Source of the DNA: Symbiotaphrina buchneri
Taxonomy: Eukaryota > Ascomycota > Symbiotaphrinales > Symbiotaphrinaceae
NCBI GenBank assembly: GCA_001599915.1
Contig: BCIG01000039.1
Coordinates: forward strand, 1-64,000
Reading direction: 5' to 3'
DNA length: 64,000 nt
Made by a program: the position numbers and the translations under genes. Shown here one piece after another: positions 16,116-37,216 of this stretch. Numbering within the stretch: the stretch's first letter is position 1; every line of letters starts with the position of its first letter. A model generated the notes under the pieces. The model was not told where the DNA came from, ran no database searches, and was given only the letters and a program-made list of their open reading frames with translations.

Positions 16116-17160
16116 ATGGCTGGCCTCGAAGCACTTGGTGCCCTTGCCAGCGTCTCTCAGGTTACCGTCTATACAACCTTCATCCTCCAGGCGCTCTCCA
16201 ATCTTCCAGGGACACTCAGCAGGACTCGTGGTTACGCCTCTCAGGTTCAGCATCTCCAGGCGACCACTCGACTTATTGAAGGAAATCCTGCTCTTCAAAC
16301 AAAAGATATCCTGCGTCACCTCGCCTCCACTCTCACGACTGTCGAGACTTTGTTCAATATAATCGTACAGTTACCGGTTGATTGTGAGCGCAGCAACTTG
16401 AAGAAGATCTGGTGGTGCGTCGCAGCGATATCCAAAGAGAGAGAGGTGCTCCCGTTGTTCAAAACACTTGAACAGAATAAGACGGCACTTATTTTGTCCA
16501 TCAGGGCCTCAAACACGGCTACTCTCTGCGACGTCCATGAAGTTGTCCAGGATATCAATAACAAATTTCTTGCAATGTCTCCGGAAGAGAACAGTCTGAA
16601 GCGGCAAGTAGACCAGAAAGAAGCTGCGGTAAGTCTCAACGTCGGTTGATCCCTCCCCCGTTGATAGCGAATGCTACCGCACGCTCAAACAACGTCCTTT
16701 GATATGGAATCTTTGATCGACTAACCTTGTCTCTAGCCAGTAGAAAGCGACTTCGGTCAACTGAAGGATCCTGCTCACCTACAGATCTCTGAGAGCGGAA
16801 ACGGACAAATGATCTCTCTGAAACATCAGAGGGTCGACGGTTCGTACAAACGGAGCGAGCCCAGACAGCACAGCTGACCCAAGTCGATCTCTAGCACCTA
16901 ATGCTTCGGTAGGCATGGCAGACGTCAAACAGTCATCTAGTGACAGAGCTCTTCCGAAAGTGCAGCGAGGGAAGCACCACCATTATGAAGAGCCCATAGT
17001 GGGCGACGGTTCTAGACAGCACAATGGAAATGTGGGGACAGTGGGAACGACTGTTTCTCCTGGGAATTTCTATCGCTATCCAACCACAGGAGCGAATTGC
17101 GTGCAGACAAACGGGGATATGAGTACTGATGCAGCGTTGGGACTTTTGCGACCGAGGTAG
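16116..17160 (+). CDS. SesA/HeLo-like protein with C-terminal NG repeats (3' model uncertain)
   Basis: Exon 1 (16116..16628, 171 codons) starts MAGLEALGALASVSQVT and encodes an all-helical domain. It resembles the SesA/HeLo-type N-terminal effector domains of fungal NLRs and HET-S-like proteins, by pattern only. A GTAAGT donor ends it; the next acceptor is TCTAG at 16736. A second, strongly open frame runs 16822..17160. It carries two pseudo-repeats: Y-x2-P-x2-G-x4-Q-x-NG-[ND] near 16978-17034 (with GDGSRQHNGNV) and 17065-17121 (with GANCVQTNGDM). Reading straight on from 16737 gives a stop at 16875-16877 in another frame. An extra small intron (for example 16844..16883, 40 nt) would join the two parts; otherwise there is a frame break. 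Such C-terminal repeats look like HET-s-related amyloid motifs. The role is probably cell-death or incompatibility signalling, by inference. Confidence 0.6.
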
Positions 17161-17743
17161 AAGGAAGACTATTGGTTGAAATCGGTCAACAGATATCAGA
17201 CAGAAATGGTCTCTTTCCCTGATTTGGCCCCTCTTGTCATTTCGTTAAATATGTATCCTTCACAGCTGTTTACCAACTTGGGATGTGTACAGCACCCGGT
17301 CAGATCATCTTCAATTTGTGTAGCTTGAGGGTCCAGGAGGACATGACCAGTGACCAGTGACATATCGTAGGGCAAATTGGCGCGAACTTCTGATGATCCT
17401 CATTGTCGTAATGCAAAGTCCTGCTGCTGCGGATGATCTAGTGCATTTGACAGGATGCTCCGGGCCAACAGACTGTCTGCTGCCCCTAACAGAGTCAGGG
17501 GTGCTCATGCCTGTATTACTTCCGGCATGGTCAAGGTCAACAGATGGGCTAAGTAATGGTCCACGACCCAGACAGGCTCATAGTATGGCGGGCTGTGCAT
17601 CGACCCACCAACCCCAAGGAACCGCAGCATGCACCGCCCCTGCATTGCAATAACGGGGGGGCTGGGGGGCAGGGCGGGGACAGTCTGCCGGTGCTCCAAC
17701 GCAGAGGCAGAGAATATTAATTGGCCGCGTCCCTTGCTTCTCC
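17161..17743. other. Intergenic between the two NG-repeat genes
   Basis: This stretch of 583 bp has no supported coding exon. Frames of 60-125 codons occur on both strands but carry neither repeat motif nor domain. It could hold the promoter of the downstream membrane gene, or non-coding remains if the two genes were once one. Confidence 0.4.
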
Positions 17744-18446
17744 ATGTTGCTCGCGATGGATGTACAACAAGACCTAATAGCACATAATAGTTATTTGGGA
17801 CCGAGAACTGGGGACAGGTCTCACCAGCAAAATGGAGATATTTACGATAACTCGACCAACTACTGGCCTCGCAGTAAGTCAAAGTGGCCTATCATTGGGA
17901 TGATTGCGGTTTTGGTTATTGCTTTGGTTGGTGTTCTTGCCTGGTTCTTCAGGACATATCAGAGCGAGACACCACCGTGAGTTCTCTCTCGGGGCATTAC
18001 CACATTCACGAGACTGACTCGTTCATTTGAGACGTTCGGTTACTGCTCTTTCTTCGACTGGCCTGTCCACGGCTTTCTGGACTTCCTCCCTTAGCGGTGA
18101 ATTGTTGTCGTTCACAAGAGGATCCACACCAATACAGACCATGACTGGATGGAGATTAAGCACCACATTTTCTCCGAGCCTGCCTTCAACTTTGTCGATC
18201 AGCCCATCACCATCTGGCATTCCTCCGTCATCATCGGTATCTTCATCTTCATCATCCACGGCAGCCACCACTATCACTTCCACCAGCGCTCCAGAAGTTC
18301 CGTCCAGGCAAGCTTGGCAAACTGTAACCACAAGTTCCGGCATGGCTTCAAGTTCTTCCATCACCGACGCTGCTTCTAGCACACTGTGTACATTTGGATG
18401 TCCTGACTGGAGCTGTGCATCGGATGGCGATTGCGCAGATCCATAG
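17744..18446 (+). CDS. Single-pass membrane protein with cytosolic NG repeat and Cys-rich module
   Basis: The model has two exons: join(17744..17976,18032..18446), 215 aa. The N-terminus holds one copy of the NG repeat (with GDRSHQQNGDI, about 17783-17842). A basic RSKSK stretch precedes one TM (about residues 49-69, IGMIAVLVIALVGVLAWFF). The positive-inside rule places the N-terminus in the cytosol. An extracellular Ser/Thr-rich stalk of about 100 residues follows, then a Cys module C-x2-GC-x2-WSC-x4-DC-x-DP. The frame meets TAG at 18444-18446. The same frame then continues to 18575 with a second, near-identical Cys module (CNWGCKGWSC, DCKDPYQC). The gene is therefore either truncated by a nonsense change, read through, or spliced differently. 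A receptor-like role is inference from topology and from the neighbour that shares the repeat. Confidence 0.65.
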
Positions 18447-18575
18447 CCGTACGACCAAGGCGTTTGCTGTAACTGGGGCTGTAAGGGCTGGAGCTGCAAT
18501 ACCGGTCAAGACTGCAAGGACCCATATCAATGTCTGAAAAGACAAATTTACTTGACTGGATTGGATCTTCATTAG
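18447..18575 (+). other. In-frame coding-like extension: second Cys-rich module after TAG
   Basis: Directly after the TAG at 18444-18446 the frame of the membrane gene stays open for 42 codons to a second TAG at 18573-18575. It reads PYDQGVCC, then NWGCKGWSC, then a DC-x-DP-Y-x-C ending. The Cys spacing (C-x2-GC-x2-WSC-x4-DC-x-DP) repeats that before the stop, so this stretch evolved as protein. Confidence 0.65.
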
Positions 18576-32957: not shown

Positions 32958-35900
32958 ATGTCGATGCAAGTCTTCATAGCACATACGGGCGAAAGCCTGC
33001 GGGCTGATCCTGTGGGCTTTGCTTCGTGAGTTGCGCCTCTTGTTGGTGGACTCTCGCCTCTGATGTACTGACCTATCAAAGGTTGGAAGTGTTCCGGTCA
33101 TGGGTCACCGAAAATACCGGTGTTGGAGGACCCAACCAGATATTGATGACGGCTAGGGGCAAGCAGGTCAAGCTTCAGACATTGCTGACAGAAGTACTTC
33201 ACCGATCTCCCTTGTTTGTACGGTGTCCTAATTGTCTTTAGAAAGAGATATTTGTGTATGACCGCCAATTTATCTCACCTCCTAGCAAAGCCTCGAAACC
33301 TTCCATTCCTCGAATCGACCCACCTGTACCTCTTGCACTCAAGGATCCTCCAGATACACTCACAGACCAGAATAGTCTCAAAGCATGGCAGGACCTATTC
33401 AAAGCAAGGCGGTCGTGGGCGCTCGACCTGGCGGACAAATGTACGCCTATGGCAGACGTTGTACGGAGGTATTTCGTCGAAATGGACGTTATACGGAGAT
33501 CGGTCGGTGTTGCAGTTGAAAACCTCCAAAGTCACATTCGCAGCTTGGATCAGAAGCAACAAGAAGCTCAGAACTGGGCGAATGAAGTCGTAAAGGAGCA
33601 GGAAACTGTCATGTCCGGTTGGAAAGACACTTTTTCAAGGTTGCAACAGATACCTATCAAGCAAGAGCTGGCCCAATTTCTACGGCGTAATGATCCAAAG
33701 GCGAAGTCGCATGATAGATCTCCCGACCGGGTATCTTCTACCGACAAACCTTCGCTCGCAAGCCTGCTCAATATGGAGGATGTCAACAAGGCAGGATCTG
33801 TGAGCCAAGAAGTCGTTCAGCAGCTCCGACAGAAAGTCACAGAAATTGCAAACACGGTCGATCGCATTGTCAAGAGCAGCCAAGAGCTGATGGACGCCGT
33901 GGAAGCAAACAACCAGTCTTCCTTATTACAACAGGGTCAGGAGCCTTTGCGATTAATGGAGGATATCACAACTGTCGCCAGAAAGGTCAATTCCGATTAC
34001 GAGCATGTACTAGGTTTAACGAATGCGCCAAAGTCCATCTCACAAGCATCAAAAATGGCCCTTTTGCATACCCGCAATTATCTGCCGTCCTTGATCGAAC
34101 TTGCACGGGAGATGGACCAACTCTTACATGCCTCAATCGAGCAGAAGAATGAGTATATGCAGGAAGCCGTACAACACATGCAAACGATATCGTCAATCCA
34201 ATCGATGCTTGCAAACGTCAATCCTCAACTCTCTGAACTGGATTTGGGTAGTGAGGCCATTGCGACTTTGGATTTGTTCAACCTAATGGATCGCCTTCCG
34301 TTCGTGTACGGATCTGTCCTTGTTGAAGCAGTCCGCAGGCGGGAATGGTCTGACAGAATGAAAGGGGATTCGTCTGCTCTGGCGGAGGAACTGGCAGCTT
34401 TAGGGGAAGAGGAGGAACGACGGAGGAAGAAATGGCAGAGAAATGTTGGCGACATGATTCGGCCAGGCCTCACAGAAGGCAATATCTTGGCCGTCGAAAT
34501 GAACCTGCGGGGCGACGAACAGCCATGGCCTGCGGTAACGCGTGATGACGTGGAAATGTTTCTACAGAACCTGAGGCAGATTGACCCTGCTAACGGAATA
34601 ATCAAAGAATTGGTGCAAGCTGTCAAGGACATCGACCGACCCACACGGCATCAGGCGAAGCGGGCAAAGGCATTCAAGATGGGAAGCGTACATGAGGCAG
34701 CGCTTGGTAGGAGTTCACTCTTACTGCCAAGTGAAGAGGCACGCAATCTCCGAGAAGATAAGATGAAGCTTGAAGAGAAGTTGAAAGGATCAGAGAGCCG
34801 TGTAAGAAAACTAGAAGATCTCCTTCATCGGCACACGCACGTACAGCGAACACTCAGTGGGAATGTATTTCAACAAGGAAGTATTGGGCAACCGGGTTCC
34901 CCTGGAGCCCCAGGGGTCTCACCACGGCCCTACGACCCAGACTCGCGTCGATCGTCAATCTCATCACGACGGTTTTCGTCCAACCAGGGTGGAGAAGATA
35001 AAGCTTTGGTTCAAAGGCTGGTCTCACTAGAAGCTGAACTAATCGCAGAGAGAGAGCATGTGGCAGGCCTACAGAAAGAGGCTTCTGCACGCAAGCAGTC
35101 GGAAGAAGCGATGAAAACCCGAATGGAGGAAGCTGATCATACCAAAAGGGACTTAATGGAGAATCTCGAGGCTATGCAACGGGAATTCTCCGACGAACGC
35201 AGGGTACTGGACGACCATATCGGAAAGCTCAAGGAAAAGCTAGAAGAGGTTGAGGATGAGCTTGACCGTGTTCTGGAAAGCAGAGACAACGAAAGACAAA
35301 ACGTCGACGAAAGGGTTCGCAATCTGGAATTAGATATGGACAAGATCAAAAGGGAAGCAGATGAGGACTTGGAGAAAGCGCAAGCGCAGATTGAAACCGT
35401 GAAGAATGATTTCCACGCGCAGCGCGATGCGAGCCATGAATTCGAGAGGAAGCTAGGAGAAAGAGATGAAGAGATTTGGCAGTTGAAACGTAAACTTTCT
35501 GAGCTGGAAAGTCAGGTCCAAGAAAGGGAGAACATTAGTGTGGAGCAACAGAAAGCTCTACGAACCGCTCACAACTATCTGGCAAGCAACATAGAAGCTC
35601 CAGAGGACATTCTGCTCCTTGCCGAAGCCATAGAGGATCTTTCAGAGAAGGCTGCAAGCGAGAGAAAAGATCTTCAGACTGCGCTTTCTCTCAGCAGAGC
35701 GGATATGGAGACTCTGCGAGAGCAACAAAAAGATGCAGAAGCTCAAATGCAAGAGCTCCGTGAGAAGCTAGGCACTGAGGAGATGGAGTCTTTCACTCTC
35801 AGAGAGACCTTGGCAGAGGAGCGTGCGAAGTTCTCCTCATTGCAAGCCGAGATGGAGGACGAGCGTTTACAGCTAAGCACGCTACGTGCCAGATTAGCTG

Positions 35901-37216
35901 ATGGTGAAAATGGCTCCGAAAGTTTGAGGGAGCGCGTTGCTGCAGAGGAGAAGACAGTGCTCGAGTACTCCGAGAAGCTAGCTGCTGCTGAAGCTCGTGC
36001 TGCTGCTGTTGAGCAAGAACTAGCGAGCGTGCGCGAGAACACTGAGCAACTGCGCCAACGCTCTCAGAGAACAAATTCTCGACTGGAATCTCGCACGCTT
36101 CGGGCCAAAGATCTTACACAACGTCTTTACGCCCAGAACGACCGTCTAGGTCGCCTATTGAGGTCTTTGGGATTTACTTTCAGCCGACGAGATGGCGCCA
36201 TGGTCATAGAGAGAGTTCCTAGAACGAGCAGTTCGAGTACGACTGAGGCTGACCCAAGCTCTTCAATGCACCGTACTGTGTCGGGATCGCTTCCATCAGC
36301 AGAAGCCTTCTCTAATACGGATGAGCTTGACCTGCTGTACTGGACACAAGAACCAGATTCCGATACAGAGGTTGAGAAATACTCTGCTTATATTTCAACG
36401 CTGGGTGCCTTTGACCTGGACGCCTTCAGTGAGGCCATCACCAAGCGGGTCAAAGAGACTGAACATATGGCTCGAAAGTGGCAGAAAGAGGCACGGGCAT
36501 ATCGGGACAAGTCTCATCGTGCTCAAATGGAAGCTCATGAGAAGATTGCATTTCGATCATTCAAGGAAGGTGACCTTGCTTTATTCCTCCCCACTCGAAA
36601 TCAAGCCACTCGTCCTTGGGCAGCCTTCAACGTGGGCGCTCCGCACTATTTCTTGCGAGAACAGGAAAGCCATAAACTTCGGACTCGGGACTGGCTACTA
36701 GCACGCATTTCGAAGGTAGAGGAGCGTGTAGTGGACCTGTCCAAGTCCATGAACGGCCTTCAACAAGGTGATGAAAGGTCTATCAAGTCTACCAGTGATG
36801 GTGGTGCTTCCTTTGATGACGAGAATCCTTTCGAACTGTCCGATGGGTTGCGATGGTATCTGCTAGACGCAGCAGAGGAAAAGCCTGGAGCGCCGAGCAC
36901 ACCTGGTCTGGGAAAGAGTACAGTTGCTAGTGCAAACATTGATGCAAAAGGAAGCATCCGGATGAAGAAGCCATCAAGCGGAGGCGGCATTAGTAAGACT
37001 CTCAGTCGGAGCTTGGACAGCAGGAGAAGCAGCTCCAACTCAAAGAAGGGCGCTCCTGGTGTGTCTGGCCTCGTCTCCGGTCTTTCTGCAGCAGAAGCAT
37101 CGAATCCAGGAACGGCTGCTGCACCAGACGACGTAGGGCTAGGCATCAGCACCAGAGACCTCTCTTCAAATGATGTACAGCCCGAGGTACGCCGCGAACA
37201 GCTTCTGGGGCCTTGA
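32958..37216 (+). CDS. ATG11: Autophagy-related protein 11 (selective autophagy scaffold)
   Basis: The model has three exons: join(32958..33025,33082..33193,33242..37216), 1384 aa. The first two small exons restore the ubiquitin-like N-terminus: MQVFIAHTGESLRADP, then LEVFRSWV, QILMTARGKQVKLQTL and KEIFVYDRQ. The ATG17-like helical region follows (with WALDLADKC and YVRRYFVEMDVI-type helices). A very long coiled coil covers about residues 540-1010. The Atg11 C-terminal domain includes FKEGDLALFLPTRN, RPWAAFNVGAPHYFL, LLARISKVEERVVD and NPFELSDGLRWYLLDA. The tail is Ser/Gly-rich. Atg11 binds cargo receptors and recruits Atg1/Atg9 for pexophagy, mitophagy and Cvt-type pathways at the phagophore assembly site. 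Length is usual for filamentous fungi. A second ATG two codons in is an alternative start. Confidence 0.95.

Follow-up and report, generated by a model that had tools for sequence, protein, structure and literature searches.

The window analyzed here comprises the first 64,000 bases of a 66,499-base contig (C39) from the 23.4 Mb genome of Symbiotaphrina buchneri, which is assembled in 82 contigs. The intron structure and the genes present suggest a filamentous fungus. The window contains two adjacent genes on the + strand, whose predicted products carry three in-register copies of one 21-residue motif: two are C-terminal in the left protein and one is N-terminal in the right protein. The upstream neighbour (about 14.2-15.6 kb) is a gene that appears homoserine-dehydrogenase-like, and the downstream ORF (18.9-19.9 kb) had no significant match in a Pfam scan. 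Pfam scans of 16 long ORFs other than the pair gave no match to an NLR domain. Farther downstream, at 33242-37213, lies a gene resembling the autophagy scaffold ATG11, with Pfam ATG17_like and ATG11 domains.

The left gene is predicted to have three exons. Exon 1 (16116..16628) encodes an N-terminal domain (residues 1-171) that is modelled as all-helical. It is followed by a 108 nt intron (16629..16736; GTAAGT...CTAAC...TAG), by exon 2 (16737..16839), which was placed by the splice model and codon use, by a 55 nt intron (16840..16894; GTTCGT...CTGAC...TAG) and by exon 3 (16895..17160, including the stop codon), which holds the repeat region. Joining the helical part to the repeats takes both introns, which have GT-AG ends and branch-like CTAAC and CTGAC sites, and yields a predicted protein of 293 residues. 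When intron 2 is left unspliced, the frame stops upstream of the repeats.

The right gene begins with exon 1 (17756..17976), which encodes a short, motif-bearing N-terminus and then a transmembrane helix (17891..17950; residues about 46-65) with a Kyte-Doolittle maximum of 2.87 in a 19-residue window. A 55 nt intron follows (17977..18031; GTGAGT...CTGAC...GAG); its ends were set by eye, and another in-frame acceptor (TTAG), some 60 nt downstream, could be used instead. Downstream are a Ser/Thr-rich stalk (18033..18380; residues 75-190, 49% S+T) and a Cys-rich module (18387..18446) that ends at an in-frame TAG (18444-18446). The next 43 codons (18447..18575), the last of which is a stop, are open; their translation would give a second Cys-rich module resembling the first. 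The first-pass annotation had extended the right gene to 18575, which runs it through the TAG; its order of motif, transmembrane helix, Ser/Thr-rich stalk and Cys-rich part holds, with the Cys-rich part cut short. In the absence of readthrough, translation would end with the first Cys-rich module.

The side of the membrane on which the motif lies can be predicted from the flanking residues. The stretch PRSKSK is located N-terminal to the transmembrane helix and, according to the positive-inside rule, these basic residues would place the motif on the cytosolic side. The right protein is therefore probably a type II membrane protein with a cytosolic N-terminus, a topology predicted from the translated gene. 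Weak matches to the right protein at three other loci (L007, L008 and L009) do not carry the motif.

We located the three motif copies at 16972-17034 (r1; left protein residues 232-252), 17059-17121 (r2; left protein residues 261-281) and 17780-17842 (r0; right protein residues 9-29). All share the pattern Y-x2-P-x2-G-x4-Q-x-N-G-[ND]-[VMI], which had been described at the outset as a ~19-residue pattern with two copies near 17000 and 17090 and one near 17815; each copy was found where it had been placed. In a six-frame translation of the window, [QH]xNG[ND][VMIL] occurs in the three copies only, and the looser GxxxxQxNG occurs in the three copies and at one other place. A BLOSUM62 matrix built from r1 and r2 ranked r0 first (42.5, next-best 19.5) among 173,920 stop-free 21-mers from the window and 14 loci, the pair's own copies included. 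The matrix from r0 and r1 likewise finds r2 (31.0 vs 23.0 for the next), and the matrix from r0 and r2 finds r1 (36.5 vs 22.0). The comparison of r1 alone with r2 is less striking, as four other 21-mers equal the score of r2. A local alignment between the left protein and the right N-terminus scored 50, a score reached by none of 5000 shuffles (maximum 46); the best of 1138 control ORFs also scored 46. A stretch of left exon 2 considered as a degenerate third copy scored 4.3 with the matrix and was dropped.

At the DNA level, the copies agree at 24, 35 and 30 of 63 bases, leaving 28-39 bases different, and several of the residues that they have in common use different codons. The protein sequence has thus been kept while the DNA diverged, and this base identity rules out a recent DNA duplication as the origin of the copies. 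When we applied the three-copy matrix to 57 other loci (248,560 bases, overlaps included; 251,987 21-mers), the best score was 20.0; the three true copies, each left out in turn, scored between 31.0 and 42.5. The two-repeat peptide, searched against the genome, found itself only and missed r0, about 640 bases away; consequently, that search cannot show the absence of the motif elsewhere in the genome.

The in-frame TAG bears on whether the pair functions at all. It may be a real stop, an assembly error or a matter of splicing, and the right partner may be shortened or non-working because of it. An unlikely explanation of the locus is that the two genes are a remnant of a decaying locus, or an artefact of annotation, with no working signalling. 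Besides the TAG, which falls within the Cys-rich region, the weak codon use is in keeping with this explanation: scores are 0.04 for left exon 3, -0.04 for right exon 2 and -0.43 past the TAG, compared to 0.15 to 0.30 for the seven reference ORFs. Past the TAG, both other forward frames score above the proposed one, and codon use gives no support for coding there. One frame of left intron 2, when translated, scores 0.02, close to the value for exon 3. Also in keeping with decay, no homologues were found when the whole left protein, its repeats by themselves and the N-terminal part of the right protein were compared with a large public protein set (no match, E up to 10), a result that says little because the set probably holds few fungal proteins. 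On the other side, the spliced frames are open, and the proposed frame is the top forward frame in all three left exons (+0.18 and +0.16 for exons 1 and 2, both other forward frames being negative in each of the three) and in both right exons (+0.07 for exon 1, other frames negative). One reverse frame ties the proposed frame in left exon 2 (0.16), and one reaches 0.24 in right exon 2. Retention of the motif residues despite the divergence of their DNA also argues against decay.

We next consider the class of the left N-terminal domain, which the first-pass annotation had called SesA-like. In a Pfam scan of the left protein, none of the SesA, HeLo, HeLo-like or HET-s models was among the matches listed (E up to 10, with the HMMER filters discarding most matches above E 0.1), so that this name lacks a Pfam match behind it. 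An RPW8 match (E 0.027) is at noise level, like those of three unrelated families beside it. Conversely, exon 1 is absent from the matches listed in genome searches with the profiles PF17107, PF17111 and PF14479. The structure model agrees with the suggested helical effector domain in being all-helical, at a pLDDT (52.8) too low to trust. A PDB fold comparison with this low-confidence model returned generic helical bundles, with no HeLo, MLKL or RPW8 chain among the rows listed, an absence that shows nothing given the quality of the model. PDB sequence searches with exon 1 and the repeat region gave matches only at E 0.26 and above, which were taken as chance.

The similarity that was detected is weak and confined to the last helix of the domain, which aligns in place with the HeLo-like and SesA-like N-termini of NLR-like genes from the same genome. 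The domain scored 22.2 against a profile, with maxima of 17.4 among 112 controls and 16.0 among 50 shuffles. Against a five-domain profile it scored 23.1. Three of 247 controls scored at least as high, two of these being a single HeLo gene that entered the control set in duplicate, and none of 100 shuffles did; one unrelated window frame outscores it in this test. A HeLo/SesA-like effector class is weakly supported.

NLR-like genes that start with HeLo-like (PF17111-like) or SesA-like domains lie at five loci (L047, L048, L052, L061 and L062); in the three that were Pfam-scanned, the N-terminal matches are below the cut-off. Elsewhere in the genome, HeLo-domain matches at two loci (L063 on contig C12, 107.7 bits; L064 on contig C5, 32.1 bits) adjoin ORFs that look kinase-like by eye, and a 1333-residue ORF (L046:2386-6384) combines a CHAT-like stretch, recognized by eye, with NACHT/NB-ARC matches.

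We then compared the motif to the known amyloid motif classes, whose patterns are given here as they appear in the portions of the cited papers available to us. The HRAM pattern has N/Q/H at position 3, hydrophobic residues at 5, 8, 10, 16 and 18, R/K at 15, G at 19 and a large polar residue at 20, and tolerates T at 10 and, in HRAM5/HRAM4, Q at 16 or 18 (PMC4518210). In this numbering, r1, r2 and r0 have H, N and N at position 3, Tyr at 5, V, T and T at 10, Q at 16 (an HRAM5 feature), G at 19 and N, D and D at 20. Core positions 5, 10 and 16 pass in all three copies, position 8 is Pro and position 18 is Asn in all three, and a basic residue is present at position 15 in one of the three. Repeats r1 and r2 carry opposite charges at position 6. 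By our own coding of this pattern into nine features, r1 has 7, r2 has 6 and r0 has 6, while of 11,313 background 21-mers with G at position 19, 9.8% have 6 or more and 2.1% have 7 or more.

Because Pro-8 and Asn-18 are consistent across the copies, the motif is no member of HRAM as defined, and the sequence fit to HRAM is suggestive at best. The layout corresponds to that of HRAM systems: paired ~21-residue repeats are C-terminal in the effector, and the protein encoded next door has one N-terminal copy. The Pfam profile PF11558 did not match the repeat region in the scan; it matches just 38 of 155 published repeat pairs (PMC4518210, as excerpted), and its genome search, without a match here, was equally without a match in the control genomes and hence uninformative. 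The earlier description of the repeats as amyloid-motif-like is supported in part: the two-plus-one layout, G at 19 and the polar residue at 20 agree with it, and core positions 8 and 18 do not. Three further patterns were compared by eye: the sigma units (GxGxQFNxx plus GGTQNINT, threefold; PMC3321046), the PP motif (FxGx(x)NxGLQLxGxNxGxL; PMC3321046) and the GDQN motif reported in 2025 (NxxxGxQYxxxGxGDQNxVSxxxxQxN; PMC12261475). None of them, in the forms given in those excerpts, is present in the translated repeats. Modelled alone from the single sequence, the repeat region showed no secondary structure, at low confidence. We infer from the residues and their layout that the motif may be amyloid in nature.

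The same residues accommodate a different role, in which the motif is a docking element (homotypic, heterotypic or acting via a third partner) that recruits the left protein to the membrane with no amyloid templating. The shared-motif evidence fits docking equally, and a core carrying Pro at 8 and polar Q and N at 16 and 18 is in its favour. We nevertheless regard docking as rather improbable: two-plus-one repeats next to a domain of HeLo/SesA type, weakly so here, are otherwise the arrangement of amyloid signalling pairs (PMC4518210, in the portions available).

Among the mechanisms considered, membrane-protein clustering with homotypic templating of the left protein is deemed the likeliest, on the basis of the two-plus-one layout of HET-S/NWD2 and the parallel with PGRP-LC, and we place it somewhat short of an even chance. 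According to this mechanism, the right protein would hold its one motif copy inside the cell and its Ser/Thr-rich, Cys-containing C-terminus outside. If a ligand, wall contact or damage clustered the outer parts, the cytosolic motifs would be brought together and could then nucleate an ordered, probably beta-solenoid-like assembly. This assembly would recruit and refold the paired C-terminal motif copies of the left protein, thereby freeing its helical HeLo/SesA-like domain to act, probably at the membrane. The motif copies, their layout, the adjacency of the genes and the transmembrane helix are present at the locus; the topology, the amyloid nature of the motif, the direction of signalling and the outcome are predictions. 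Counting against this mechanism are Pro-8 and Asn-18, the missing Pfam match of the left protein, the low confidence of its helical model, the unrelated frame that outscores its domain, the searches that returned no relatives, the TAG in the Cys-rich part and the codon use of right exon 2.

Signalling could also run in a different direction, with the membrane protein serving as an anchor, target or decoy that holds or titrates the left protein, and with an NLR or another protein elsewhere providing the trigger. We judge this improbable, even though HeLo-like or SesA-like N-termini are found on NLR-like genes of this genome and the motif scan covered part of the genome, so that a further carrier is possible. 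Among published effectors, 98 of 155 have an NLR next door and 57 of 155 do not (PMC4518210, in part); a distant NLR would therefore not be odd, and the missing neighbour NLR is not decisive by itself. Speaking against such a trigger, none of the 25 NACHT and 8 NB-ARC genome matches listed (E up to 1) falls on contig C39. The motif is likewise absent from nine stretches around NLR candidates (87,599 bases), which are part of the 57 loci scanned, so that no scanned NLR stretch carries it.

Returning to membrane-protein clustering, its most far-reaching form is that a new motif class allows a type II receptor at the fungal cell surface, without an NLR, to template an amyloid fold onto a two-copy HeLo-like effector, in a manner similar to PGRP-LC/IMD; we hold this form to be doubtful, if possible. 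More broadly, it is plausible that the locus is a candidate non-NLR membrane-to-effector signalling pair, new in kind. The two-component pair first suggested thus retains its shared motif, two-plus-one layout and adjacency, and its fit to HRAM is partial.

In the excerpted literature, fungal amyloid signalling is described as starting from cytosolic NLRs or from the effector's own prion form, and for nearly every system the trigger is said to be unknown (PMC7889193). We found no fungal membrane protein with an amyloid signalling motif among the titles and abstracts of the openly available papers listed, or in the passages on membranes that were seen in papers on amyloid signalling. If the proposed mechanism is true, a membrane-anchored motif carrier would be an outside-facing sensor whose ligand is accessible to experiment. 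The known motif classes would gain one that Pfam profiles overlook, and the swapping of receptors, an NLR against a membrane protein, would be suggested for fungi as PGRP-LC shows it for animals. Fungal type II membrane proteins would then be worth scanning for repeats that they have in common with the gene next door.

The closest known layout is that of HET-S/NWD2, in which one N-terminal receptor copy templates two C-terminal effector copies (PMC4518210 and PMC7889193, in part). Both systems have a ~21-residue double repeat at the C-terminus of a HeLo-like protein (here weakly so) and one N-terminal copy in the adjoining gene's product, and both have a conserved G[ND] toward the end of the motif, an HRAM trait (PMC9815663, in part). 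Unlike HET-S/NWD2, the partner here is a predicted membrane protein rather than an NLR; unlike HRAM, positions 8 and 18 are not hydrophobic and there is no HET-s profile match. The motifs of the SesA/SesB/HET-eN sigma cluster and the GDQN pair resemble the one here in their G, N, Q and aromatic residues, the sigma composition being rich in G, N/Q and aromatics (PMC3321046, in part), as the copies here are. Both systems also place a SesA-type effector beside a partner gene, as may be the case here, whereas their partner is a known or probable NLR.

The insect receptor PGRP-LC is a type II protein. Its cytosolic cryptic RHIM gathers the IMD adaptor, which has a like motif (PMC9496462, in part). 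Unlike the pair described here, PGRP-LC/IMD is an animal system with a cRHIM motif, and its adaptor leads to NF-kB and has no HeLo-like domain. The likeness claimed is one of operation and not of homology: in PGRP-LC/IMD, as would be the case for this pair, a membrane receptor with a cytosolic motif gathers a cytosolic protein that carries the same kind of motif.
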